DNA of 10,790 bases from Bacilli bacterium (lineage in GTDB: Bacteria; Bacillota_I; Bacilli_A; RF39; UBA660), in contig JAFUFG010000154.1 in assembly GCA_017470045.1 (NCBI GenBank), forward strand, positions 1-10,790, in the 5' to 3' direction. Of the stretch, positions 1,331 through 10,790 are shown in pieces. Below the pieces are notes generated by a model that made no database searches, was not told the origin of the DNA, and was given only the letters and a program-made list of their open reading frames with translations. Position numbers and translations under genes: made by a program. Positions within the stretch are counted from its first letter, which is position 1. Every line of letters starts with the position of its first letter.

Positions 1331-1369
1331 AAAAAGTACAAAAAAAAGAATAACTTTTCAGTTATTCTT
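1331..1369 (-). terminator. Rho-independent terminator of the hisS-aspS operon
   Basis: On the minus strand, AAGAATAAC (1369-1361) pairs perfectly with GTTATTCTT (1354-1346) around a TGAAAA loop. It is followed by the T-rich tract TTTTTGTACTTTTTT. The TAA stop of aspS (1370-1368) overlaps the 5' foot of the stem. Confidence 0.8.
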
Positions 1370-2687
1370 ATGGATTAAGACGATTAGGTCCACGGAATAA
1401 GAATTGAGTTTCTTTAACACTTGGAATACTTAATAATAACATTGTAAGTCTATCTACTCCAATCGCAAATCCACCATGTGGAGGGCATCCATATTTAAAG
1501 AACTCTAAGTAGAACTTAACATCTTCTCCTAAACCTTTTTCTTTTGCATTCTTGCAAATTTCTTCATAACGATGTTCTCTTTGAGCACCACTAGTAATCT
1601 CAACACCTCTCCAGATTAAGTCGTATCCTTGTAGAACACCTTCACTATTTCTCATATGATAGAAAGCTCTTTTTTCAGCTGGGAAATCAATGATAAATAA
1701 AAATTCATGATTAAATTTATCTTTTGCAAGCTTGTAAGATAAGCGTTCTGCTTCTGTAGTCATATCAGTCTTTTCAGAATCATCTACTTTATATCCATAA
1801 CGTTCTTCTAATTCTTTATAAACATCAGCAAGTCTCATTACTGGGAATGGCAATGTTGGAACAACTACTTCTTCTCCAAATAATTCTTGAATCTTTTCTC
1901 CATATTCTTCTTTTAATTTACCTAATGCATAAGCAAGCATTTCTGCTTCAACATTCATAACATCTTCAAAGCTATTGATATAAGAAAGTTCTACATCGAA
2001 ACTAGTAAATTCTGTAGCATGTCTTGAAGTATTAGAGTTCTCTGCACGGAAACATGGAGCTACTTCAAAAATACGACTCATTCCACTTGCCATAGCCATT
2101 TGTTTATAGAATTGTGGACTTTGTGCAAGATATGCAGAACGATCAAAATATTTTACTTCGAATACTTCGGCACCAGATTCACTTGCTGCACCTAATAATT
2201 TTGGAGTATGAATCTCAGTAAAATCATTGTTGTATAAATACTCTCTCATATAACGGATTAAAGTACTTTGTACCTTAAACATAAAATTATTCTTTTCATT
2301 TCTTAAATCAATGAAACGATAATCCAATCTAGTATCAATATTAACATTTGCCAAGTCCTTAAAGTTAAATGGTAATTCTTCTCCACTTGTACTTGTAACT
2401 TCAATCTTACTTGGAATAATCTCCATACCATTTAATTTAACTTTAGGAGATTCCATTACTTTACCAGTAATTTTAACGGTACTTTCTACAGGTAGATTAT
2501 TAATAATTTCTACCATTTCTTTATTTGCTTCTTCACTTTTTTCAATGGTAACTTGTACTTTACCAGTTGCATCTCTTAATATTACAAATTGTACCCATTG
2601 TAGATTACGAATATTATCAACGAATCCACTAATCGTTACTTCTTTTTCAAAATAATTTTTTAATTCATTTATATTTAATTTTTCCAT
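1368..2687 (-). CDS. aspS: Aspartyl-tRNA synthetase, archaeal/eukaryal type
   Basis: This class IIb synthetase attaches aspartate to tRNA in the cytosol. At 439 residues it lacks the GAD insert of the roughly 590-residue bacterial AspRS and matches the short archaeal-type enzyme. The N-terminal OB-fold anticodon-binding domain covers about 15-100. The catalytic domain follows, with the motif 1 region at 155-178 (IHTPKLLGAASESGAEVFE), LAQSPQFYKQ (188-197, an AspRS rather than AsnRS signature), motif 2 at 213-233 (FRAE...SRHATEFTSFDVE), ITSGAQREHRYEE (364-376) and motif 3 GGFAIGVDRL (405-414). Archaeal-type AspRS may be discriminating or may also charge tRNA-Asn for GatCAB amidation. The OB-fold position that is Trp or His in characterised enzymes appears to be Asp24 here, so I cannot say which. 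The start has AGGAGG at 2699-2694 with 6 bases of spacing. It is the last gene of the T-box operon. Confidence 0.93.
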   Translation of the reverse strand: MEKLNINELKNYFEKEVTISGFVDNIRNLQWVQFVILRDATGKVQVTIEKSEEANKEMVEIINNLPVESTVKITGKVMESPKVKLNGMEIIPSKIEVTSTSGEELPFNFKDLANVNIDTRLDYRFIDLRNEKNNFMFKVQSTLIRYMREYLYNNDFTEIHTPKLLGAASESGAEVFEVKYFDRSAYLAQSPQFYKQMAMASGMSRIFEVAPCFRAENSNTSRHATEFTSFDVELSYINSFEDVMNVEAEMLAYALGKLKEEYGEKIQELFGEEVVVPTLPFPVMRLADVYKELEERYGYKVDDSEKTDMTTEAERLSYKLAKDKFNHEFLFIIDFPAEKRAFYHMRNSEGVLQGYDLIWRGVEITSGAQREHRYEEICKNAKEKGLGEDVKFYLEFFKYGCPPHGGFAIGVDRLTMLLLSIPSVKETQFLFRGPNRLNP

Positions 2688-2693
2688 AATTTA

Positions 2694-2700
2694 CCTCCTA
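2694..2700 (-). promoter_or_regulatory. Ribosome binding site of aspS containing the upstream stop codon
   Basis: The minus strand reads TAGGAGG. TAG (2700-2698) ends the 281-codon gene, and its AG is the start of the AGGAGG Shine-Dalgarno of aspS (2699-2694). Ribosomes terminating upstream are thus placed on the aspS initiation site, which suggests translational coupling. Confidence 0.8.
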
Positions 2701-3543
2701 TTTATTATGATAAGTTTTTAAAACATTTTGTTTGCTCTTTTCAAAATTTGTAGTAACACCAGATGTACATAATTCGTTCGCACTATTTACAAGATCAAAC
2801 CATAAGTAGAAATCTCCTTTATTAGGAGAATTTTCTAACTCCGTATCCATATCTAAAATATCCATATAATCTAATGCATGTTCAAATTCTTGGAATAAGT
2901 ATTTAGACTTATCCATATAATTCTCACAATGTTCTGCTTCTTGAATAACTTTACCAACAAGTTTTACAGCCATATCATGATGTTTGAATATTTTGGCATT
3001 ACTTCCATCATCTGGATACAAAGAAAGAACTTTTTCTCTTTCTTCATCATATTCTTTTAAAGAACCAGCTGCTAAATGATAAATAGCATCAGTGAAAGAA
3101 AACCAATCTTTAGAAGTTCCTACACTAGGATGATCATAACGAGTGTTATCAAAGTCTACTGGTTTCGAATAAAGGAAAGGATTGTGACTAGCCCAATGAT
3201 AAATCAACGAAGTAGCTTTCATTCGAGAACCACCTTGTCCTTCTACTTTGGAAATAAAATCCGTAAGATAATCATTCATCATAGGATACTTTAAATAAAT
3301 ATCTTGAGCAGTAGAATCATTTAATCCCTTCGAAAATAAAATACATTTCTTTACACGATCGATAGATTGATCAAACATATCAAAAGCATCAAGATTACCA
3401 AAACCAGTATGATTCATTTTAAAATAATGATCTGCAGCTTCTAACAATTCAAGCTCATCATATCGTAAATCTGTAACACCTACACCATATTCTTTTAAAA
3501 CCTCTTTATACTTTTTTAGTTGTTCTTTCTTTGAAATACTCAT
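2698..3543 (-). CDS. Unrecognised protein encoded between hisS and aspS
   Basis: I do not recognise a family. The product is 281 residues, soluble in appearance, without a signal peptide or transmembrane helix. It looks mainly alpha-helical and acidic, rich in aromatic residues (Tyr, Phe, Trp) and with about eleven scattered His. Local landmarks are a Lys-rich start (MSISKKEQLKKYKEVLKEYG), IYHWASHNPFLYSKPVDFDN (114-133), DAIYHLAAGS (152-161), IFKHHDMAVKLVG (185-197) and EAEHCENYMDK (202-212). No P-loop, HTH, nuclease or synthetase motif is apparent. The start has GGAG within TAGGAG, and that TAG is the hisS stop, so translation is probably coupled to hisS; its own TAG lies in the aspS ribosome binding site. 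Shared transcription and tight junctions argue for a real, co-regulated gene. A role linked to tRNA charging is only guilt by association. Confidence 0.85.
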   Translation of the reverse strand: MSISKKEQLKKYKEVLKEYGVGVTDLRYDELELLEAADHYFKMNHTGFGNLDAFDMFDQSIDRVKKCILFSKGLNDSTAQDIYLKYPMMNDYLTDFISKVEGQGGSRMKATSLIYHWASHNPFLYSKPVDFDNTRYDHPSVGTSKDWFSFTDAIYHLAAGSLKEYDEEREKVLSLYPDDGSNAKIFKHHDMAVKLVGKVIQEAEHCENYMDKSKYLFQEFEHALDYMDILDMDTELENSPNKGDFYLWFDLVNSANELCTSGVTTNFEKSKQNVLKTYHNK

Positions 3544-3548
3544 ATTAA

Positions 3549-3554
3549 CTCCTA
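3549..3554 (-). promoter_or_regulatory. Ribosome binding site of the 281-codon gene containing the hisS stop
   Basis: The minus strand reads TAGGAG. TAG (3554-3552) is the hisS stop, and AGGAG (3553-3549) is the Shine-Dalgarno of the next gene, whose ATG begins 5 bases later at 3543. The architecture is the same as at the next junction (2694-2700). Confidence 0.75.
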
Positions 3555-4916
3555 TTCATGACAATGTCCGCATCCACAATGCCCATGTTCGTGTTCATGA
3601 TCACAATCACAATCATCTCCACAACCATAGTCGCCAAATTCATCCCCTGTATTCAATTTTTCATCTAAATAATAAATTAAAACATCTAAACTAATAATTT
3701 CTTCTTCTCCAGTAGCTTGATTCTTAATCTTAATTTCATTATTATTTAAATCTTCACTATTAAGTACAGCTGTAAATTTTGCTTTTAAACGATCTGCTTG
3801 TTTAAATTGACCTTTTAAAGCACGACCAGTATATTCTGTATCAACAATAAATCCTGCCATACGTAATTCTTGAGATAAGTATACAGCGTATTTCTTTTCT
3901 TCTTCATTTACATACATTAAGAATAAATCAATGTCGTCAACAATAGGCATCTTAACTTCTTCAAGTTCTAATGCTTTTACAAGTCTTCCAACTCCACAAG
4001 CAAAACCAATACAAGGAGTTTCTGGTCCATCTAATTGGCTAACAAGTCCATTATAACGACCACCACCACCTAATACATTATTAGAGCCAAAGCCTTCTAC
4101 CTTAGCTTCAATCTCAAATACGGTATGATTGTAATAATCAAGTCCTCTTACAATATTAGGATTTACCTCATATTTTACTCCTAAAATATCTAAGTAATCT
4201 TTTACTGTTTCAAATCTTTCACAACTTTCATCATTTAAGTAATCAATAGTCTTAGGTGCATTCTTCATAATATCTTTATCTGCATCTACTTTACAATCTA
4301 AAATACGTAATGGATTCTTATCAATTCTTGCATTACAATCTTCACATAATTCAGACATATGTGGTTTGAAATAATCAATTAAAGCTTGACGATAGTTATC
4401 TCTACTTTCTTTATCCCCTAAAGAATTAATATTAACTTTAATTTCTTTTAAACCTAACATTTTATAAATATTAACAGCTAAAGAAATAACTTCTGCATCT
4501 GTCATTGGATCATCGCTACCTAATACTTCCATACCAAATTGAGTAAGTTCACGATCTCTTCCACTTTGTGGTCTCTCATAACGATACATTGTTCCATTAT
4601 AATAAACCTTAACTGGTTGATTTGGATCTCCAAACATCTTATTTTCAATATAACTTCTTACTACTCCTGCAGTTCCTTCTGGACGAAGAGTAATCTCTCT
4701 ACCTCCACGATCTACAAAATCATAAGTTTCCTTTGTAACAATATCAGTAGAATCTCCAATTCCTCTATGGAATAGTTCTGTTGCTTCAAATAATGGAGTA
4801 CGAATGTAGTTATAATTATATTTCTCCATAGCAGCATCAATAACGCTTTCTACATATTTCCATACTTTTGCTTCTCTACCAGTAATGTCATTACAGCCTT
4901 TTTGTCTTTGAATCAT
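3552..4916 (-). CDS. hisS: Histidyl-tRNA synthetase with Cys/His-rich C-terminal tail
   Basis: This class II synthetase charges tRNA-His in the cytosol. From the ATG at 4916 (AGGAGGG at 4928-4922, about 6 bases away) it is 454 residues and opens MIQRQKGCNDI as HisRS should. A longer in-frame reading from a GTG at 4982 would translate T-box RNA and is rejected. Motif 1 lies around TPLFEATELFHRGIGDSTDI, motif 2 is MYRYERPQSGRDRELTQFGM, the HisRS-specific elements are RGLDYYNHTVFEI and GGGGRYNGL, and motif 3 is GFACGVGRL. The anticodon-binding domain ends near DVLIYYLDEKL (residue 421). After it comes an unusual 33-residue tail (422-454) with six Cys (432, 436, 438, 447, 449, 452), six His (440, 442, 444, 446, 451, 453) and many Asp/Glu. 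HisRS usually ends at about 420-430 residues, so the tail is an addition. It looks able to bind metal, which is inference. It is the first gene of the T-box operon. Confidence 0.96.
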   Translation of the reverse strand: MIQRQKGCNDITGREAKVWKYVESVIDAAMEKYNYNYIRTPLFEATELFHRGIGDSTDIVTKETYDFVDRGGREITLRPEGTAGVVRSYIENKMFGDPNQPVKVYYNGTMYRYERPQSGRDRELTQFGMEVLGSDDPMTDAEVISLAVNIYKMLGLKEIKVNINSLGDKESRDNYRQALIDYFKPHMSELCEDCNARIDKNPLRILDCKVDADKDIMKNAPKTIDYLNDESCERFETVKDYLDILGVKYEVNPNIVRGLDYYNHTVFEIEAKVEGFGSNNVLGGGGRYNGLVSQLDGPETPCIGFACGVGRLVKALELEEVKMPIVDDIDLFLMYVNEEEKKYAVYLSQELRMAGFIVDTEYTGRALKGQFKQADRLKAKFTAVLNSEDLNNNEIKIKNQATGEEEIISLDVLIYYLDEKLNTGDEFGDYGCGDDCDCDHEHEHGHCGCGHCHE

Positions 4917-4920
4917 TTTA

Positions 4921-5123
4921 TCCCTCCTACAAAATAAAAAGGTGCCACCCAAAGGACGAACAAACAAAGTTCGTGGTGCCACCTTATTTTCTACTCTTAA
5001 TAACCGATAACGTAGTCATACGCTTCCCTTTAATTGGATGTCTTCTATTTACTATTTGAAGTATTTTCACCAACCATACTCTCTCTAAACAACATCATAA
5101 ATATACTCTTTCCAAAGAAGATA
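4921..5123 (-). promoter_or_regulatory. T-box riboswitch leader, probable tRNA-Asp sensor
   Basis: This leader controls the hisS operon by tRNA-dependent antitermination. Stem I shows the specifier-loop AGTA (5107-5104) directly before helix strand TATTTA (5103-5098), which pairs with TAAATA (5051-5046). That strand is followed by GAA and then GAC (5042-5040) with a 3' A, so the specifier reads GAC, an Asp codon. The distal part has AGAGAG (5086-5081) and GGTTGGTG (5075-5068). The antiterminator is classical: AAGG (4985-4982) pairs with CCTT (4955-4952), and ACGAAC (4974-4969) with GTTCGT (4961-4956). The 7-base bulge is TGGCACC (4981-4975). UGGC would pair with a GCCA tRNA end, matching the G73 of tRNA-Asp and not the C73 of tRNA-His. 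The operon holds both hisS and aspS, so an Asp input is plausible. Confidence 0.9.
4931..4983 (-). terminator. T-box attenuator (terminator conformation)
   Basis: The 3' arm GGTGGCACC (4949-4941) is followed by TTTTTATTTT (4940-4931), just before the hisS Shine-Dalgarno. It can pair with the T-box copy GGTGGCACC (4983-4975) with one G-G mismatch. The inner ACGAAC/GTTCGT helix is kept and CCTTTG bulges out. This pairing hides the tRNA-binding bulge and excludes the AAGG/CCTT antiterminator helix. Confidence 0.65.
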
Positions 5124-6452: not shown

Positions 6453-6887
6453 TTACCTCTCTAAAAGAATTGTCGTTGGTCCAACATTAGTTAAAGAAAT
6501 ATTCATATCTCCTCCAAATACACCAACTTCAACTTTTACATATTTTCTTAATTCTTCATTAAATAATTCATAAAGTTTTGAAGACTCTTCACTCTTCATT
6601 GCTTTTACATAACTTGGTCGATTTCCTTTGTTACAATCCGCATAAAGAGTAAATTGAGAGATGGATAAAACACTTCCTCCAAAATCTAAAATACTTTTAT
6701 TCATAACATCATTTTCATCTGGAAAAATTCGAAGATTTACAAGTTTCTTTGCAAGATATTCGATTTGTTCCATCCCATCTCCATCAGTAAATCCAACAAA
6801 GACAACTAATCCAGATTCAATTTCTCCAGTAATATGAGAATCTACAACACATTTCGCATAATCACTTCTTTGAACTAATAATCTCAT
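6453..6887 (-). CDS. dtd: D-aminoacyl-tRNA deacylase
   Basis: Dtd hydrolyses D-amino acids (and mischarged glycine) from tRNA in the cytosol, protecting translation from wrong chirality. The 144-residue product has the family's usual length and opening (MRLLVQRSDYAKCVVD, then GLVVFVGFTDGD). The catalytic-site motif SQFTL is at 77-81 and KGNRPSY at 87-93. The Gly-cisPro motif is present as NVGPTT with Gly136-Pro137. The residue before that Gly is Val, and Thr replaces the common Val after the Pro; both look conservative. Its ATG overlaps the rel TGA as ATGA (6887-6884), so it is translationally coupled to rel, as in the common Bacillota rel-dtd pair. Confidence 0.96.
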   Translation of the reverse strand: MRLLVQRSDYAKCVVDSHITGEIESGLVVFVGFTDGDGMEQIEYLAKKLVNLRIFPDENDVMNKSILDFGGSVLSISQFTLYADCNKGNRPSYVKAMKSEESSKLYELFNEELRKYVKVEVGVFGGDMNISLTNVGPTTILLER

Positions 6888-7912
6888 CGGAATGCCCTCT
6901 CTACTTTCTCTACATAACTAAGTTTCTCAACACCTAGAATAACATGTTCTAATTGTTCTAAACCAGTTACATAACAATCTACTTCATAAATACTCTTATC
7001 CCCTTGACTTAAAGTCTTAATACCATCGATATTAACAGTGAATAAAGAGATTGATTGCATTAAATCCATCATATGATTTTCACTATCATTCGTAGTAACT
7101 AATAAACAAGTTAAATAACGTTTATTCGCATTACTATTCCAATTAACCTCTAGTGTACGATCTTCTAACATAGAAAGATTATGACAATTCATACGATGTA
7201 CCGTAATACCATTTCCTTTTGTAATATACCCAATGATTTCATCTCCATACACTGGATTACAACAATTTGCTAAATTAACTTTAATACTATCAATACCACT
7301 AACAATAATATCTGCATCAATATTCTTACTAGTTACTTTAACAACTTTAGGAGCAGGTACTTCTTGGATTTTATCAATAACATTAACAACACCACTAACG
7401 GTTGCTTTTCCATTTCCAACTGCTAAATAGATTTCATCAAGATTCTCTACTTTAATAGAATCACAAATCTTTTTAACATTCTCATCACTAAAGAATTCAC
7501 TAAATACAAGTTTACGTTTACGTAATTCTTTCTCTAATGCATACTTACCACGATCAATATAGATTTCACGATCATTCTTTGTAAAGAACTGTTTAATCTT
7601 ATTCTTCGTCGCAGTACTCTTAACCATATTGATCCACTCTTTAGAAGGAGTAGAACTCTTATTTGTATTAATTTTAACAATATCATTATCTTGTAACTCA
7701 TAGTTTAATGGAACAATATTATTATTAACAATTGCACCTACTGTAGTCTCTCCAACTTTCGTATGAATCTTATACGCAAAGTCTAATGGAGTAGCACCAC
7801 GAGGTAACTCAATAACATCTCCCTTAGGAGTAAAGACATAAATATTATTATTTAATACTTCATCTTTTACACTTTGAACAAATTCTTCACTATTAATATT
7901 TTGATGACTCAA
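6884..7912 (-). CDS. rel: Rel (p)ppGpp enzyme, C-terminal regulatory half, separated by a frameshift
   Basis: This is the regulatory half of a long RelA/SpoT homologue. It senses uncharged tRNA on the ribosome and controls the catalytic half. The first available start is a TTG at 7912. Counted from it, the TGS domain is at about 24-83 (YVFTPKGDVIELPRGATPLD, with His50 in FAYKIH), and a helical linker follows. The zinc-finger/RIS region has Cys217, Cys218, His239 and Cys243, and the C-terminal ACT domain is at about 266-341. The homologous frame extends upstream of the TTG to about 7943, where KLQFFKSIID is encoded as expected for an intact Rel. This region is therefore the continuation of the upstream gene in another frame, not an independently evolved gene. 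No good Shine-Dalgarno precedes the TTG. It overlaps the upstream stop as TTGA. Confidence 0.88.
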   Translation of the reverse strand: MSHQNINSEEFVQSVKDEVLNNNIYVFTPKGDVIELPRGATPLDFAYKIHTKVGETTVGAIVNNNIVPLNYELQDNDIVKINTNKSSTPSKEWINMVKSTATKNKIKQFFTKNDREIYIDRGKYALEKELRKRKLVFSEFFSDENVKKICDSIKVENLDEIYLAVGNGKATVSGVVNVIDKIQEVPAPKVVKVTSKNIDADIIVSGIDSIKVNLANCCNPVYGDEIIGYITKGNGITVHRMNCHNLSMLEDRTLEVNWNSNANKRYLTCLLVTTNDSENHMMDLMQSISLFTVNIDGIKTLSQGDKSIYEVDCYVTGLEQLEHVILGVEKLSYVEKVERAFR

Positions 7913-9036
7913 ATCAATAATAGACTTAAAGAATTGTAATTTTGTTCCGTTGTAGAAGTAAGATTTGCATTACTTTCACTACCCTTATTTTCTTTATAAG
8001 CCCAGTGAGCAGCAATACCATTTTCTGCAACTTCATCCATCTCATAAGTACGAATTTGGATTTCAAATAAATCTCCACCTACTCCAAATACAGTAGTATG
8101 TAATGATTGATACATATTTGGCTTTGGAGAAGCAACATAATCTTTAAAACGTTTAGGTAAAGGTCTAAATTTAGAATGGATTAATCCAAGTGCTAAATAA
8201 CACTCTTGCTCTGTTTGCACTAAAATACGAAGTGCTAACAAATCATAGATTTCACTAAACTTCTTACCTTTATCTAATTTATTATAGATACTATAAATAC
8301 ATTTTGCTCGACCTTTAATTTCATGAGGAATATGATGTTCTGTTAATAAATCAGAAACCTCTTGCTGCATCTCATAAACATATTTATCACGTTCTAGTTT
8401 TGTTTTATTTAACTTCTCTGCAATATCATAGAAAACTTCTGGTTTCAAATAACGTAAAGATAAATCCTCCATCTCACTTTTGATCTTATGAATACCTAAA
8501 TGGTGTGCAATAGGAGCAAGAATCTCTAATGCTTCTTTTGCCTTTACCTTTTGTCTGTCTTCTGGTATTGCCCATAACGTACGTAAGTTATGAAGACGAT
8601 CTGCTAACTTAACGATAATTACACGAACGTCTTCACTCATACCTACAATAATCTTTTTATAATAATCGATTAAATATTCATTCTCCGTAGAAAAATGAAT
8701 CTTACTTAACTTTGTAACACCTTGTACTAATTTTGTAATGGTAGGACCAAACTTTTCCTCCATCTCTTCAATCGTACAATCACAATCTTCTAATACATCA
8801 TGTAAAAGTCCCGCAGAAATTGTTTCATAATCTGCATAAATAGTTGTTAATATCATCGCAACGTTTAAAGGATGAGTAATATAAGGCTCACCACTTTTAC
8901 GAGTTTGACCATCATGTTTTAATTCTGCAAACTCATAAGCATCTCGTATCACCTTTAATTGTTTCTCATCCTCAATGTAATTCTTTGCGCTTTCAATCAC
9001 TTCTTCAATGCTAACATCTACTCTAGCCTTTGACAT
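7909..9036 (-). CDS. rel: Rel (p)ppGpp synthetase/hydrolase, catalytic half, frame broken at its 3' end
   Basis: This half makes and degrades (p)ppGpp, the stringent-response alarmone. I choose the ATG at 9036, 7 bases after GGGAG; an in-frame GTG at 9054 has no such site. In 375 residues the HD hydrolase domain shows His55, HD at 79-80 (GLLHDVLED) and Asp146 in LADRLHNLRT. The synthetase domain shows GRAKCIYSIY (242-251), Asp265 in YDLLALRI, RFKD at 296-299 (the pattern of bifunctional Rel rather than RelA), YQSLHT (309-314), Glu325 in EIQIRT and IAAHWAYKE. After STTEQ (361-365) the frame departs from the family, and ten unrelated residues lead to a TGA. One extra A in the A4 run at 7943-7940 would restore a full-length Rel of about 729 residues. 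Rel follows secDF by 17 bases. Confidence 0.9.
   Translation of the reverse strand: MSKARVDVSIEEVIESAKNYIEDEKQLKVIRDAYEFAELKHDGQTRKSGEPYITHPLNVAMILTTIYADYETISAGLLHDVLEDCDCTIEEMEEKFGPTITKLVQGVTKLSKIHFSTENEYLIDYYKKIIVGMSEDVRVIIVKLADRLHNLRTLWAIPEDRQKVKAKEALEILAPIAHHLGIHKIKSEMEDLSLRYLKPEVFYDIAEKLNKTKLERDKYVYEMQQEVSDLLTEHHIPHEIKGRAKCIYSIYNKLDKGKKFSEIYDLLALRILVQTEQECYLALGLIHSKFRPLPKRFKDYVASPKPNMYQSLHTTVFGVGGDLFEIQIRTYEMDEVAENGIAAHWAYKENKGSESNANLTSTTEQNYNSLSLLLI
7940..7943 (-). other. rel: Frameshift point within rel
   Basis: The minus strand reads GAACAAAATTAC. Frame 1 gives E-Q-N-Y and soon stops. With five A instead of four it would give E-Q-K-L-Q-F-F-K, which continues into the C-terminal half with family-like residues and spacing. 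No classical X-XXY-YYZ slippery heptamer is present. Confidence 0.75.
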
Positions 9037-9053
9037 GGGACCACTCCCTTTCA

Positions 9054-10790
9054 CTAACAGTTAATACCTTTTATCTTCTTTTCTTCAAACTCATCTGTAT
9101 ATACTCTTTTTGCTTTTTTAGGTTTACCAATACTCTTCTTCTCAAAGAACATGAATATCGTACTTGCAATAAAGATAGAAGAATAAGTACCAGCAATAAC
9201 TCCAATTAACATTGCAATATTAAAGTTAATGATTTCTTTACTTCCTAAGAATAATAATGCAAGGATTGGAAGTAATGTGGTAACAGAAGTATAAATCGTT
9301 CTACTGAATGTATCAGCAACACTACGATTAACAACTTCCTCTAATTTTTCTTTTGTCATCTTCTTATCATTTTCATCTGCTAAGTTCTCACGAATACGGT
9401 CAAAGGATACAATGGTATCATTAATCGAATAACCAACAATTGCAAGAACAGCAGCAATAAACATAGAAGATACTTCAAATCTACAAATTGCAAAGATACT
9501 AGCAATAACAAGTACATCATGTACAAGTGCTAATACTCCACCTACTGCATAACTAAATTTGAAACGTAATGAGATATATAGAATAATACCAACTAATGCA
9601 ACTAGAACAGATAAAATAGCATTCTTAACTAATTCTTTTGCAACTACATTACTAACTACTCCAATATTTACTTTTGCTTCATATTTATCTTCGAAATAGT
9701 TATTAATTTCTTTTACTTGATCTCCATCAACAGTAGAATCAATACGTACATCTACTTCTTCATCACCAATTGTAATAGTAGATGCCTTTAAATCAAATGA
9801 TTTTAAATCTGCAGTAATATCTTTCTTTGTAACTTTTTGTTCTGTAGAAATCGTAATATTTGTACCAGATTGATAATCAATTCCTAGATTAAATCCTTTC
9901 ATCCCATAGAATACAATTCCACATACAATAATACAAATTGATAATGCATAACATAATTTTTTATGTTTGAAGAAATTTACACCTTCAAAAGGTTTTTTCT
10001 TAATACTTTCATTTTTACTTACATCTGGAATATCTTCTTTCTTAACATTAATAAAGAATCTTGTTCTTTCTTCAAATACTCCAGTATTAACAAATAATCC
10101 TAATAAGAATCTAGTTAAGAATACCATTGTAACCATCGTTACACATACCGTAATAATTAATACAGTAGCAAAACCTTTAATACTAGATTCTCCTAAAATA
10201 AACATAATAATTGCTACTAATAAAGTAGTTAAGTTCGAATCTAAAATTGCGCTAAAACTAGATTTAGAACCTTCTTTAAATGCTAACGTTAATCCTTTAC
10301 CAGAATACAATTCATCACGAATTCTTGAGAATGTAATAACGTTTGAATCAACTGCCATACCAATTCCAAGTACCAATGCAGCAATTCCAGGAAGAGTTAA
10401 TACTCCACCAATTACCCAGAATACTAAGAATACTAAGAATGCATATAATACCATTGCAATACTAGAAATTAGTCCAGCAAAGTGATATACAAACATTAAG
10501 ATAATACTGATTGCTACAACACCAATAATTCCAGCAATTAATGTTTTTTGTAATGTTTCATCTCCGAAACTTGCTCCTACAGTATTAGAAGAAATTTCAG
10601 TAAGTTTGCTTGGTAAACTACCGGAATTAATTAAATCTACTAAGTTTTCCACTTCTTCTTGAGTAAAGTTACCTTGAATAATAACATCACTTGCAAATCC
10701 TTGAGAAACAGTAGCTGCACTTAAACAGTTAGATGCACTAGATCCACAAAGATTTCCCTCACTACTATATTTATCTGTTAGTTCATTATA
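9054..10790 (-). CDS. secDF: Fused SecDF protein-export membrane protein (5' end outside window)
   Basis: SecDF uses the proton gradient to help the SecYEG translocon complete export. About 578 residues are visible. The frame is open to the window edge, so the true start is beyond 10790; the GTG at 10652 is internal. The visible part begins in the SecD periplasmic domain (QGNFTQEEVENLVDLINSGS, then NTVGASFGDETLQ). It continues into the SecD membrane half with GIGMAVDSNVITFSRIRDEL. After a cytoplasmic linker comes SecF: a transmembrane helix, the SecF signature FNLGIDYQSGTNITI, a small periplasmic domain, and the membrane half with GYSINDTIVSFDRIRENL. Both halves in one chain is the Bacillus-type fusion. 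It ends with a basic tail at a TAG (9056-9054), 17 bases before rel. The secDF-rel adjacency is familiar for Bacillota. Confidence 0.95.
   Translation of the reverse strand, partial: YNELTDKYSSEGNLCGSSASNCLSAATVSQGFASDVIIQGNFTQEEVENLVDLINSGSLPSKLTEISSNTVGASFGDETLQKTLIAGIIGVVAISIILMFVYHFAGLISSIAMVLYAFLVFLVFWVIGGVLTLPGIAALVLGIGMAVDSNVITFSRIRDELYSGKGLTLAFKEGSKSSFSAILDSNLTTLLVAIIMFILGESSIKGFATVLIITVCVTMVTMVFLTRFLLGLFVNTGVFEERTRFFINVKKEDIPDVSKNESIKKKPFEGVNFFKHKKLCYALSICIIVCGIVFYGMKGFNLGIDYQSGTNITISTEQKVTKKDITADLKSFDLKASTITIGDEEVDVRIDSTVDGDQVKEINNYFEDKYEAKVNIGVVSNVVAKELVKNAILSVLVALVGIILYISLRFKFSYAVGGVLALVHDVLVIASIFAICRFEVSSMFIAAVLAIVGYSINDTIVSFDRIRENLADENDKKMTKEKLEEVVNRSVADTFSRTIYTSVTTLLPILALLFLGSKEIINFNIAMLIGVIAGTYSSIFIASTIFMFFEKKSIGKPKKAKRVYTDEFEEKKIKGINC

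Follow-up and report, generated by a model that had tools for sequence, protein, structure and literature searches.

Why does a histidyl-tRNA synthetase (HisRS) end in a run of cysteines, histidines and acidic residues, and what might this run do? The question is raised by a stretch of 10,790 nucleotides from a Bacilli bacterium (GTDB lineage Bacillota_I; Bacilli_A; RF39; UBA660; contig JAFUFG010000154.1), which we analyzed at full length and refer to as the window. Its minus strand carries hisS (3552..4916), which starts with an ATG at 4916, ends with a TAG at 3552-3554 and encodes 454 amino acids. In a profile search, the protein matched TIGR00442 (hisS) over model positions 1-405 of 406 with 470.6 bits, the cut-off being 286.75, which places it in the HisRS family. 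The catalytic and anticodon-binding matches were complete by residue 419, where the HGTP_anticodon match stops. Residues 422-454 (3555..3653, minus strand) form the tail, NTGDEFGDYGCGDDCDCDHEHEHGHCGCGHCHE, whose 33 residues comprise six Cys, six His and ten Asp or Glu and include CDC and CGC, i.e., a CxC arrangement. Given the Cys plus His frequency of the HisRS core (2.4%), at least 12 such residues in 33 have a binomial probability of 9e-12. Translation and profile matches agree with the first-pass annotation, which had described a Cys/His/acidic tail of this length in frame behind the anticodon-binding domain. It had also described an ordinary TAG end inside the next ribosome site, and the TAG does overlap TAGGAG, the likely ribosome site of the next gene, 5' of its ATG.

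An AlphaFold2 model based on 52 homologues assigned the last helix of the confident anticodon domain to residues 410-422, and gave residues 425-454 a pLDDT below 50. Two stretches of the catalytic domain (residues 45-64 and 113-116) also had low pLDDT values. Taking a pLDDT below 50 as a sign of disorder, we infer that the tail is disordered. The best-matching solved structure, HisRS of S. aureus (1qe0, 420 amino acids), aligned over residues 1-417. It shares the catalytic and anticodon-binding part with the window protein, and is too short for the tail, ending where the window tail begins.

Among the 120 best homologues returned by a protein search, 119 carry at least four Cys beyond residue 421; the remaining one, P0094, ends early with two Cys. 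Absence of the tail from all close relatives, which the first-pass annotation had named as the observation that would speak against it, is thus not what we found, and the alignment that it had proposed revealed that the tail composition is kept among close relatives. A scan of genome contigs confirmed 417 relatives, and the best 80 by similarity to the window HisRS were retained. Of 81 HisRS (the window and the best 80 of the 417 loci), 76 have three or more Cys past residue 421. This set favors tail bearers, as it was ranked against a tailed protein and one of the six peptides used in the scan (DDCDCDHE) comes from the tail. The other five lack tail Cys, namely L053, L058, L070, L079 and L064, whose frame is lost before the tail. 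These counts bear on one possible explanation, that the C-terminus is a product of neutral low-complexity drift or of sequencing or assembly errors, a reading that we consider close to negligible. As 76 of 81 sequences, taken from separate records, carry the tail in frame, we reject an artefact by loss of a stop codon, as the first-pass annotation had done.

Farther from the window, tails become less common. In a sample of the order, 97 genomes were searched, HisRS was found at E <= 1e-60 in 76, and 54 ends were read. At least three Cys occurred in 23 of these 54 ends (20 among the closest 30, 3 among the 20 that followed and 0 of 4 more); the tail therefore appears dispensable in many lineages, although the genomes are MAGs and absences are accordingly weak. 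Among the 28 best-scoring loci of a draw from the whole class (two that also belonged to the order draws not counted), 8 had at least three Cys, as did 9 of 40 further HisRS ends. The class tails differ in form: some consist of CCGGHGHDHEHECCGG repeats, and others are of the CxxC type, e.g., SNCEGCSTESCDEC in L261. A protein search assigned the repeated CCGGHGHDHEHECCGG HisRS tail (P0137 and relatives) to Turicibacter sanguinis, whose HisRS thus bears a version of its own.

The 110 hand-picked rows of a quick tree were the window, 40 of the 80 loci (those with odd numbers), 30 loci from the class, 25 of the 30 from the order, and 14 proteins; the 40 further class ends were left off. The tail label was strongly clustered (shuffled labels gave a mean of 30 changes) and needs at least 12 changes on this tree, which contains long branches; eight of them are forced by well-supported branches. 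Both a single old origin followed by losses and several gains are possible. Judging from the sequences compared, we conclude that the tail is typical of the closest relatives of the window HisRS and recurs in Bacilli.

What is kept in these tails is their make-up. Among 80 tails (L064 left out), length ranges from 16 to 102 residues and Cys content from 0 to 29. Their 3080 residues comprise 20.3% Cys, 12.8% His, 33.6% Asp plus Glu, and 0.1% each of Arg and Pro; the HisRS cores contain 1.5% Cys and 0.9% His. Random DNA with the base content of the cores predicts 2.9% Cys, 1.8% His and 9.5% Lys, far from the tails with their 20.3%, 12.8% and 2.4%, respectively. Codon changes were counted in ten close pairs without a shared member, chosen from a longer pair list. 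Over whole tails, 69 silent and 70 replacement changes were found, and replacements clearly exceeded silent changes in L017/L065, L013/L019, L046/L047 and L066/L067. This fast change, together with the growth of some tails by repeats, speaks for neutral drift. The Cys codons behaved differently, 81 of 83 aligned Cys columns being retained, including 28 in which silent changes had occurred, in alignments that reward Cys matches. In the cleanest pair, L021/L026, the 102 ungapped tail codons had 23 silent and 5 replacement changes, and all 29 Cys were kept, 11 with silent changes. Across 23 pairs without a shared member, Cys was kept in 131 of 155 columns and His in 92 of 140, again with alignments leaning toward Cys matches; the cores of these pairs had 2338 silent and 633 replacement changes. 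We reject neutral drift because both the composition and the Cys codons contradict it, even though the other tail residues turn over rapidly. Selection thus seems to preserve the cysteines and the general composition of the tail, and not its exact sequence.

The cysteines are also spaced in a particular manner. We took 55 non-redundant tails with 3-10 Cys and shuffled each tail 1000 times. CxC was observed 119 times, compared with 47.4 +/- 5.9 in the shuffled tails (z = +12.2), and none of the 1000 shuffles reached as high a value. The motif is present in 52 of these 55 tails and in 73 of all 81. CxxxC was likewise above expectation (65 versus 44.6), as were HxH and HH, whereas CxxC (17 versus 46.1) and CC (28 versus 49.5) fell below it. 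A tail serving as a redox buffer, an iron-sulfur site or a disulfide switch instead of a metal buffer would be compatible with the Cys content alone. CxxC, however, is the usual redox pair and is depleted here, CxC is favored, and His and acidic residues are enriched. A thiol/redox role is therefore, in our view, most doubtful.

In 12 of the 81 tails, the Cys number rises to 13-29, and several of these expanded tails contain internal repeats such as CGCQEGKECTCG and CDCGCQEGKECTCGDDCHCG. The L031 tail, for example, has 29 Cys and 4 His. The long-tail rows fall into separate subclades of the tree (L029/L031/L055; L021; L033; L231; P0250), and expansion has therefore probably happened more than once, to the extent that the quick tree can tell. 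Since the expanded tails are rich in Cys and poor in His, they would favor thiolate metals, and we take the metal to be more likely Zn(II) or Cu(I) than the nickel of a His-type store. High Cys content, CxC spacing, few hydrophobic residues and repeats are shared with metallothioneins (PF00131), and the likeness presumably extends to the bacterial metallothioneins SmtA and BmtA. Metallothioneins are, however, free and small, whereas the tail is fused to an essential enzyme; the tails are acidic and, in the short form, His-rich. Against Pfam Metallothio (PF00131), only one of five tails passed the cut-off of 23, that of L055 with 23.6 bits as the sum over three stretches. The L060 tail stayed below it at 12.4 bits, and the window tail gave no match up to E 10. 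In a PF00131 search of 12 whole genomes, none passed the cut-off, the L055 tail itself reaching at most 13.2 bits per stretch, and an NCBIfam search with the five tails returned only weak, chance-like matches. As the window tail stays outside PF00131, we describe the tail as working like a metallothionein and not as being one.

Related sequences occur on other carriers. When one expanded tail was used as a query in 12 genomes, it retrieved a free 56-residue protein made of the same repeats, CNCGPDCTCGCQEGKECTC (L087, 1429-1599, minus strand). This metallothionein-like protein belongs to the genome of L001, which, at 90% identity, is the closest genome locus among the best 80 of 417. The free protein, in turn, gave matches in 15 of 288 order genomes: free frames of 47-66 residues with the module in ten, an N-terminal copy of the module on GrpE in four (one of which also has a free frame), a C-terminal one on a ferredoxin in one (L107, G044), and one HisRS, GrpE and ferredoxin being recognized by eye. 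A protein search with 20 candidates yielded 16 relatives of the free protein (P0121-P0136), all of them lacking a precomputed Pfam domain and a name.

GrpE was then searched as a family with PF01025. Of 91 genomes with a GrpE, 65 were read, and 30 of the loci in question were the best-scoring and not random ones. Metallothionein-like N-terminal tails with at least three Cys were found in 25 of the 65 genomes (e.g., L102, L103, L105, L108, L179, L203 and L208). Compensation between HisRS and GrpE tails was not seen: with tails defined by at least three Cys, a hand tally gave Cys-bearing GrpE in 12 of 20 genomes with a tailed HisRS and in 9 of 29 others (P = 0.08). On two long contigs, of 765 kb (G011, out of ~1.0 Mb) and 800 kb (G007, out of ~1.5 Mb), HisRS carries the only acidic Cys/His-rich tail found. 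The other matches there were, by eye, non-coding frames, a Fur-family protein, metal sites of ordinary enzymes and a membrane-protein loop. A membrane protein with a CEHDHCSC loop lies beside a Fur-family-like regulator (G011:C1, ~488630-489915, in the genome of L027; by eye), a pair that is possibly a metal locus.

The explanation that we favor, and hold to be reasonably probable on the strength of these comparisons, is that the tail is a metallothionein-type domain, disordered, acidic and rich in Cys and His, which binds metal and is fused to HisRS. With the help of His and carboxylates, the CxC thiols would most probably coordinate Zn(II) and/or Cu(I), and a housekeeping enzyme would double as a metal buffer of the cytosol. 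Because the module sits on several carriers and also occurs as a free protein, is predicted to be disordered and retains its cysteines, its basic job would be independent of the carrier. Several observations count against the metallothionein-type buffer: 5 of the 81 HisRS have no tail Cys, only 23 of the 54 order HisRS ends have at least three, tail residues other than Cys change fast, His is kept less well than Cys in the pairs, and the PF00131 pass of L055 is a three-repeat sum. HisRS might be a favored carrier in that it handles free histidine, a small-molecule metal ligand, and a metal trap would keep both the histidine and the enzyme metal-free; that histidine handling explains the choice of carrier is a guess.

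If the tail buffers metal, a trade-off with metal export might be visible. The heavy-metal efflux ATPase (TIGR01525) was present in 5 of 12 genomes with expanded tails and in 24 of 32 others, a difference in the predicted direction that was not significant (P = 0.07). The order sample, which shares five genomes with the expanded-tail sample, gave no clear effect (14 of 23 versus 24 of 32, P = 0.38). ZnuA (PF01297) occurred in 93 of 97 genomes and was hence uninformative.

The main rival to the buffer is a metal sensor, in which occupancy of the tail alters HisRS activity so that translation follows the metal state. Metal could act through tRNA binding at the neighboring anticodon domain, the dimer state or zinc-stimulated Ap4A synthesis. 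The tail begins right behind the last helix of the anticodon domain, and Cys/His tails on HisRS in several parts of Bacilli suggest that the carrier matters. Furthermore, zinc reportedly plays a role in Ap4A production by tRNA synthetases, as Blanquet is said to have described in 1983. The module is, however, also found on GrpE, on a ferredoxin and in free proteins and would thus work without HisRS. A length of 16-102 residues and the lack of a fixed motif beyond CxC are unlike a tuned switch, and with its pLDDT below 50 the tail has no confident placement in the model. We regard a sensor as unlikely. A broader variant, that HisRS is bifunctional and metal on the tail feeds back on histidine charging, with CxC repeats or other carriers reinforcing the effect, also strikes us as rather improbable; the feedback could run directly, via metal-histidine complexes or via Ap4A.

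HisRS may contain a metal site of its own. A CxDC...LDC motif (4293..4346, minus strand) comprises C191, C194 and C208, which are invariant in 52 aligned homologues, and could form an internal site. This invariance would suit a cis-acting metallochaperone, i.e., a tail that loads metal into this site. The exact pattern, however, was found in only 49 of the 81 loci and 81 of the 110 tree rows; it is missing from the tail bearers L027, L029, L031 and L055 and present in the tail-less P0161, and metal at the site is itself putative. We therefore think such a loading function very unlikely.

Upstream of hisS, the regulatory signal points to tRNA charging. A candidate T-box leader (4949..5122, minus strand) matched RF00230 with 92.7 bits (E 9.6e-20), just under the gathering score of 93. 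In 7 of 12 related loci, a T-box at gathering lies within ~630 bases upstream of hisS; in two of these seven, L006 and L021, an open stretch of 147 residues separates leader and gene. Within the window leader, GACAT (5038..5042, minus strand) contains overlapping Asp (GAC) and His (CAT) codons and is a candidate specifier. A text search of a T-box paper gave no hit for hisS (PMC2494555). We saw no metal-responsive regulation of hisS, the leader being a T-box. Downstream in the same direction lies aspS (1368..2687, minus strand; NF003483, 473.8 bits), encoding an aspartyl-tRNA synthetase of the non-discriminating type. It follows hisS in 76 of the 80 related loci, 56-732 bases past the hisS match.

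This arrangement invites a translational reading of the tail: a shortage of charged tRNA-His or tRNA-Cys would slow ribosomes on the run of His and Cys codons and thereby tune the downstream gene. The overlap of the hisS stop with the next ribosome site fits this idea, as does an operon that already senses tRNA charging via its T-box. In the expanded tails, however, Cys scales and His does not (cf. L031), which makes His-codon attenuation unlikely, and the module also exists as free genes and as an N-terminal part of GrpE. We deem a translational sensor extremely improbable.

Two further features of the window are recorded here. Between hisS and aspS lies a gene for 281 amino acids (2698-3543, minus strand) without a Pfam or NCBIfam match; among the 80 related loci, it gave a weak partial match in L004 only (32% over 53%), and aspS normally adjoins hisS directly in related loci. 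A RelA/SpoT-like protein, recognized by eye, is split into overlapping minus-strand frames (6884-7912 and 7909-9054) that meet near 7909; the split is perhaps natural or perhaps an assembly frameshift.

To our knowledge, HisRS has no zinc requirement, and a search of the open-licence literature, which omits most subscription papers, retrieved no description of a Cys/His tail on this enzyme. Tails of this kind are nevertheless known. SlyD is reported to have a C-terminal tail that is unstructured, abounds in His, Cys, Asp and Glu, and binds metal, with up to seven Ni(II) per protein (PMC7055735), in keeping with the first-pass annotation, which had likened the HisRS tail to metal-handling tails such as that of SlyD. 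Like SlyD, and the His-rich ends of HypB and UreE, the tail is a species-variable C-terminal end on an enzyme with another function, H/C/D/E-rich by composition and predicted to be disordered from the pLDDT below 50 at residues 425-454. The carriers differ, since the SlyD tail rides on an FKBP prolyl isomerase and SlyD, HypB and UreE serve nickel-enzyme maturation, whereas here the carrier is an aminoacyl-tRNA synthetase, and the expansions are dominated by Cys and built from CxC repeats. A link between zinc and a synthetase has a precedent in Anabaena ThrRS T2, a paralogue tied to the zinc state; this second gene is reported to cope with zinc shortage (PMC9437257), while in HisRS the link would be a tail. 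The nearest known relative in sequence is thus metallothionein and the nearest in kind the SlyD tail. By its sequence, the HisRS tail appears to be a metal-binding-type tail of a kind known from SlyD and metallothioneins, here on a carrier that is both new and surprising.

Should the tail bind metal, an enzyme at the core of translation would also take part in the handling of metals, in a lineage that we know almost exclusively from gut metagenomes, and metal state would be linked to protein synthesis directly and in a way that can be tested. With Turicibacter sanguinis, a named species has a tail version of its own, so that tests beyond metagenomes may be possible. The module on HisRS, GrpE, ferredoxin and free proteins would, moreover, offer a natural series for how metallothioneins arise.
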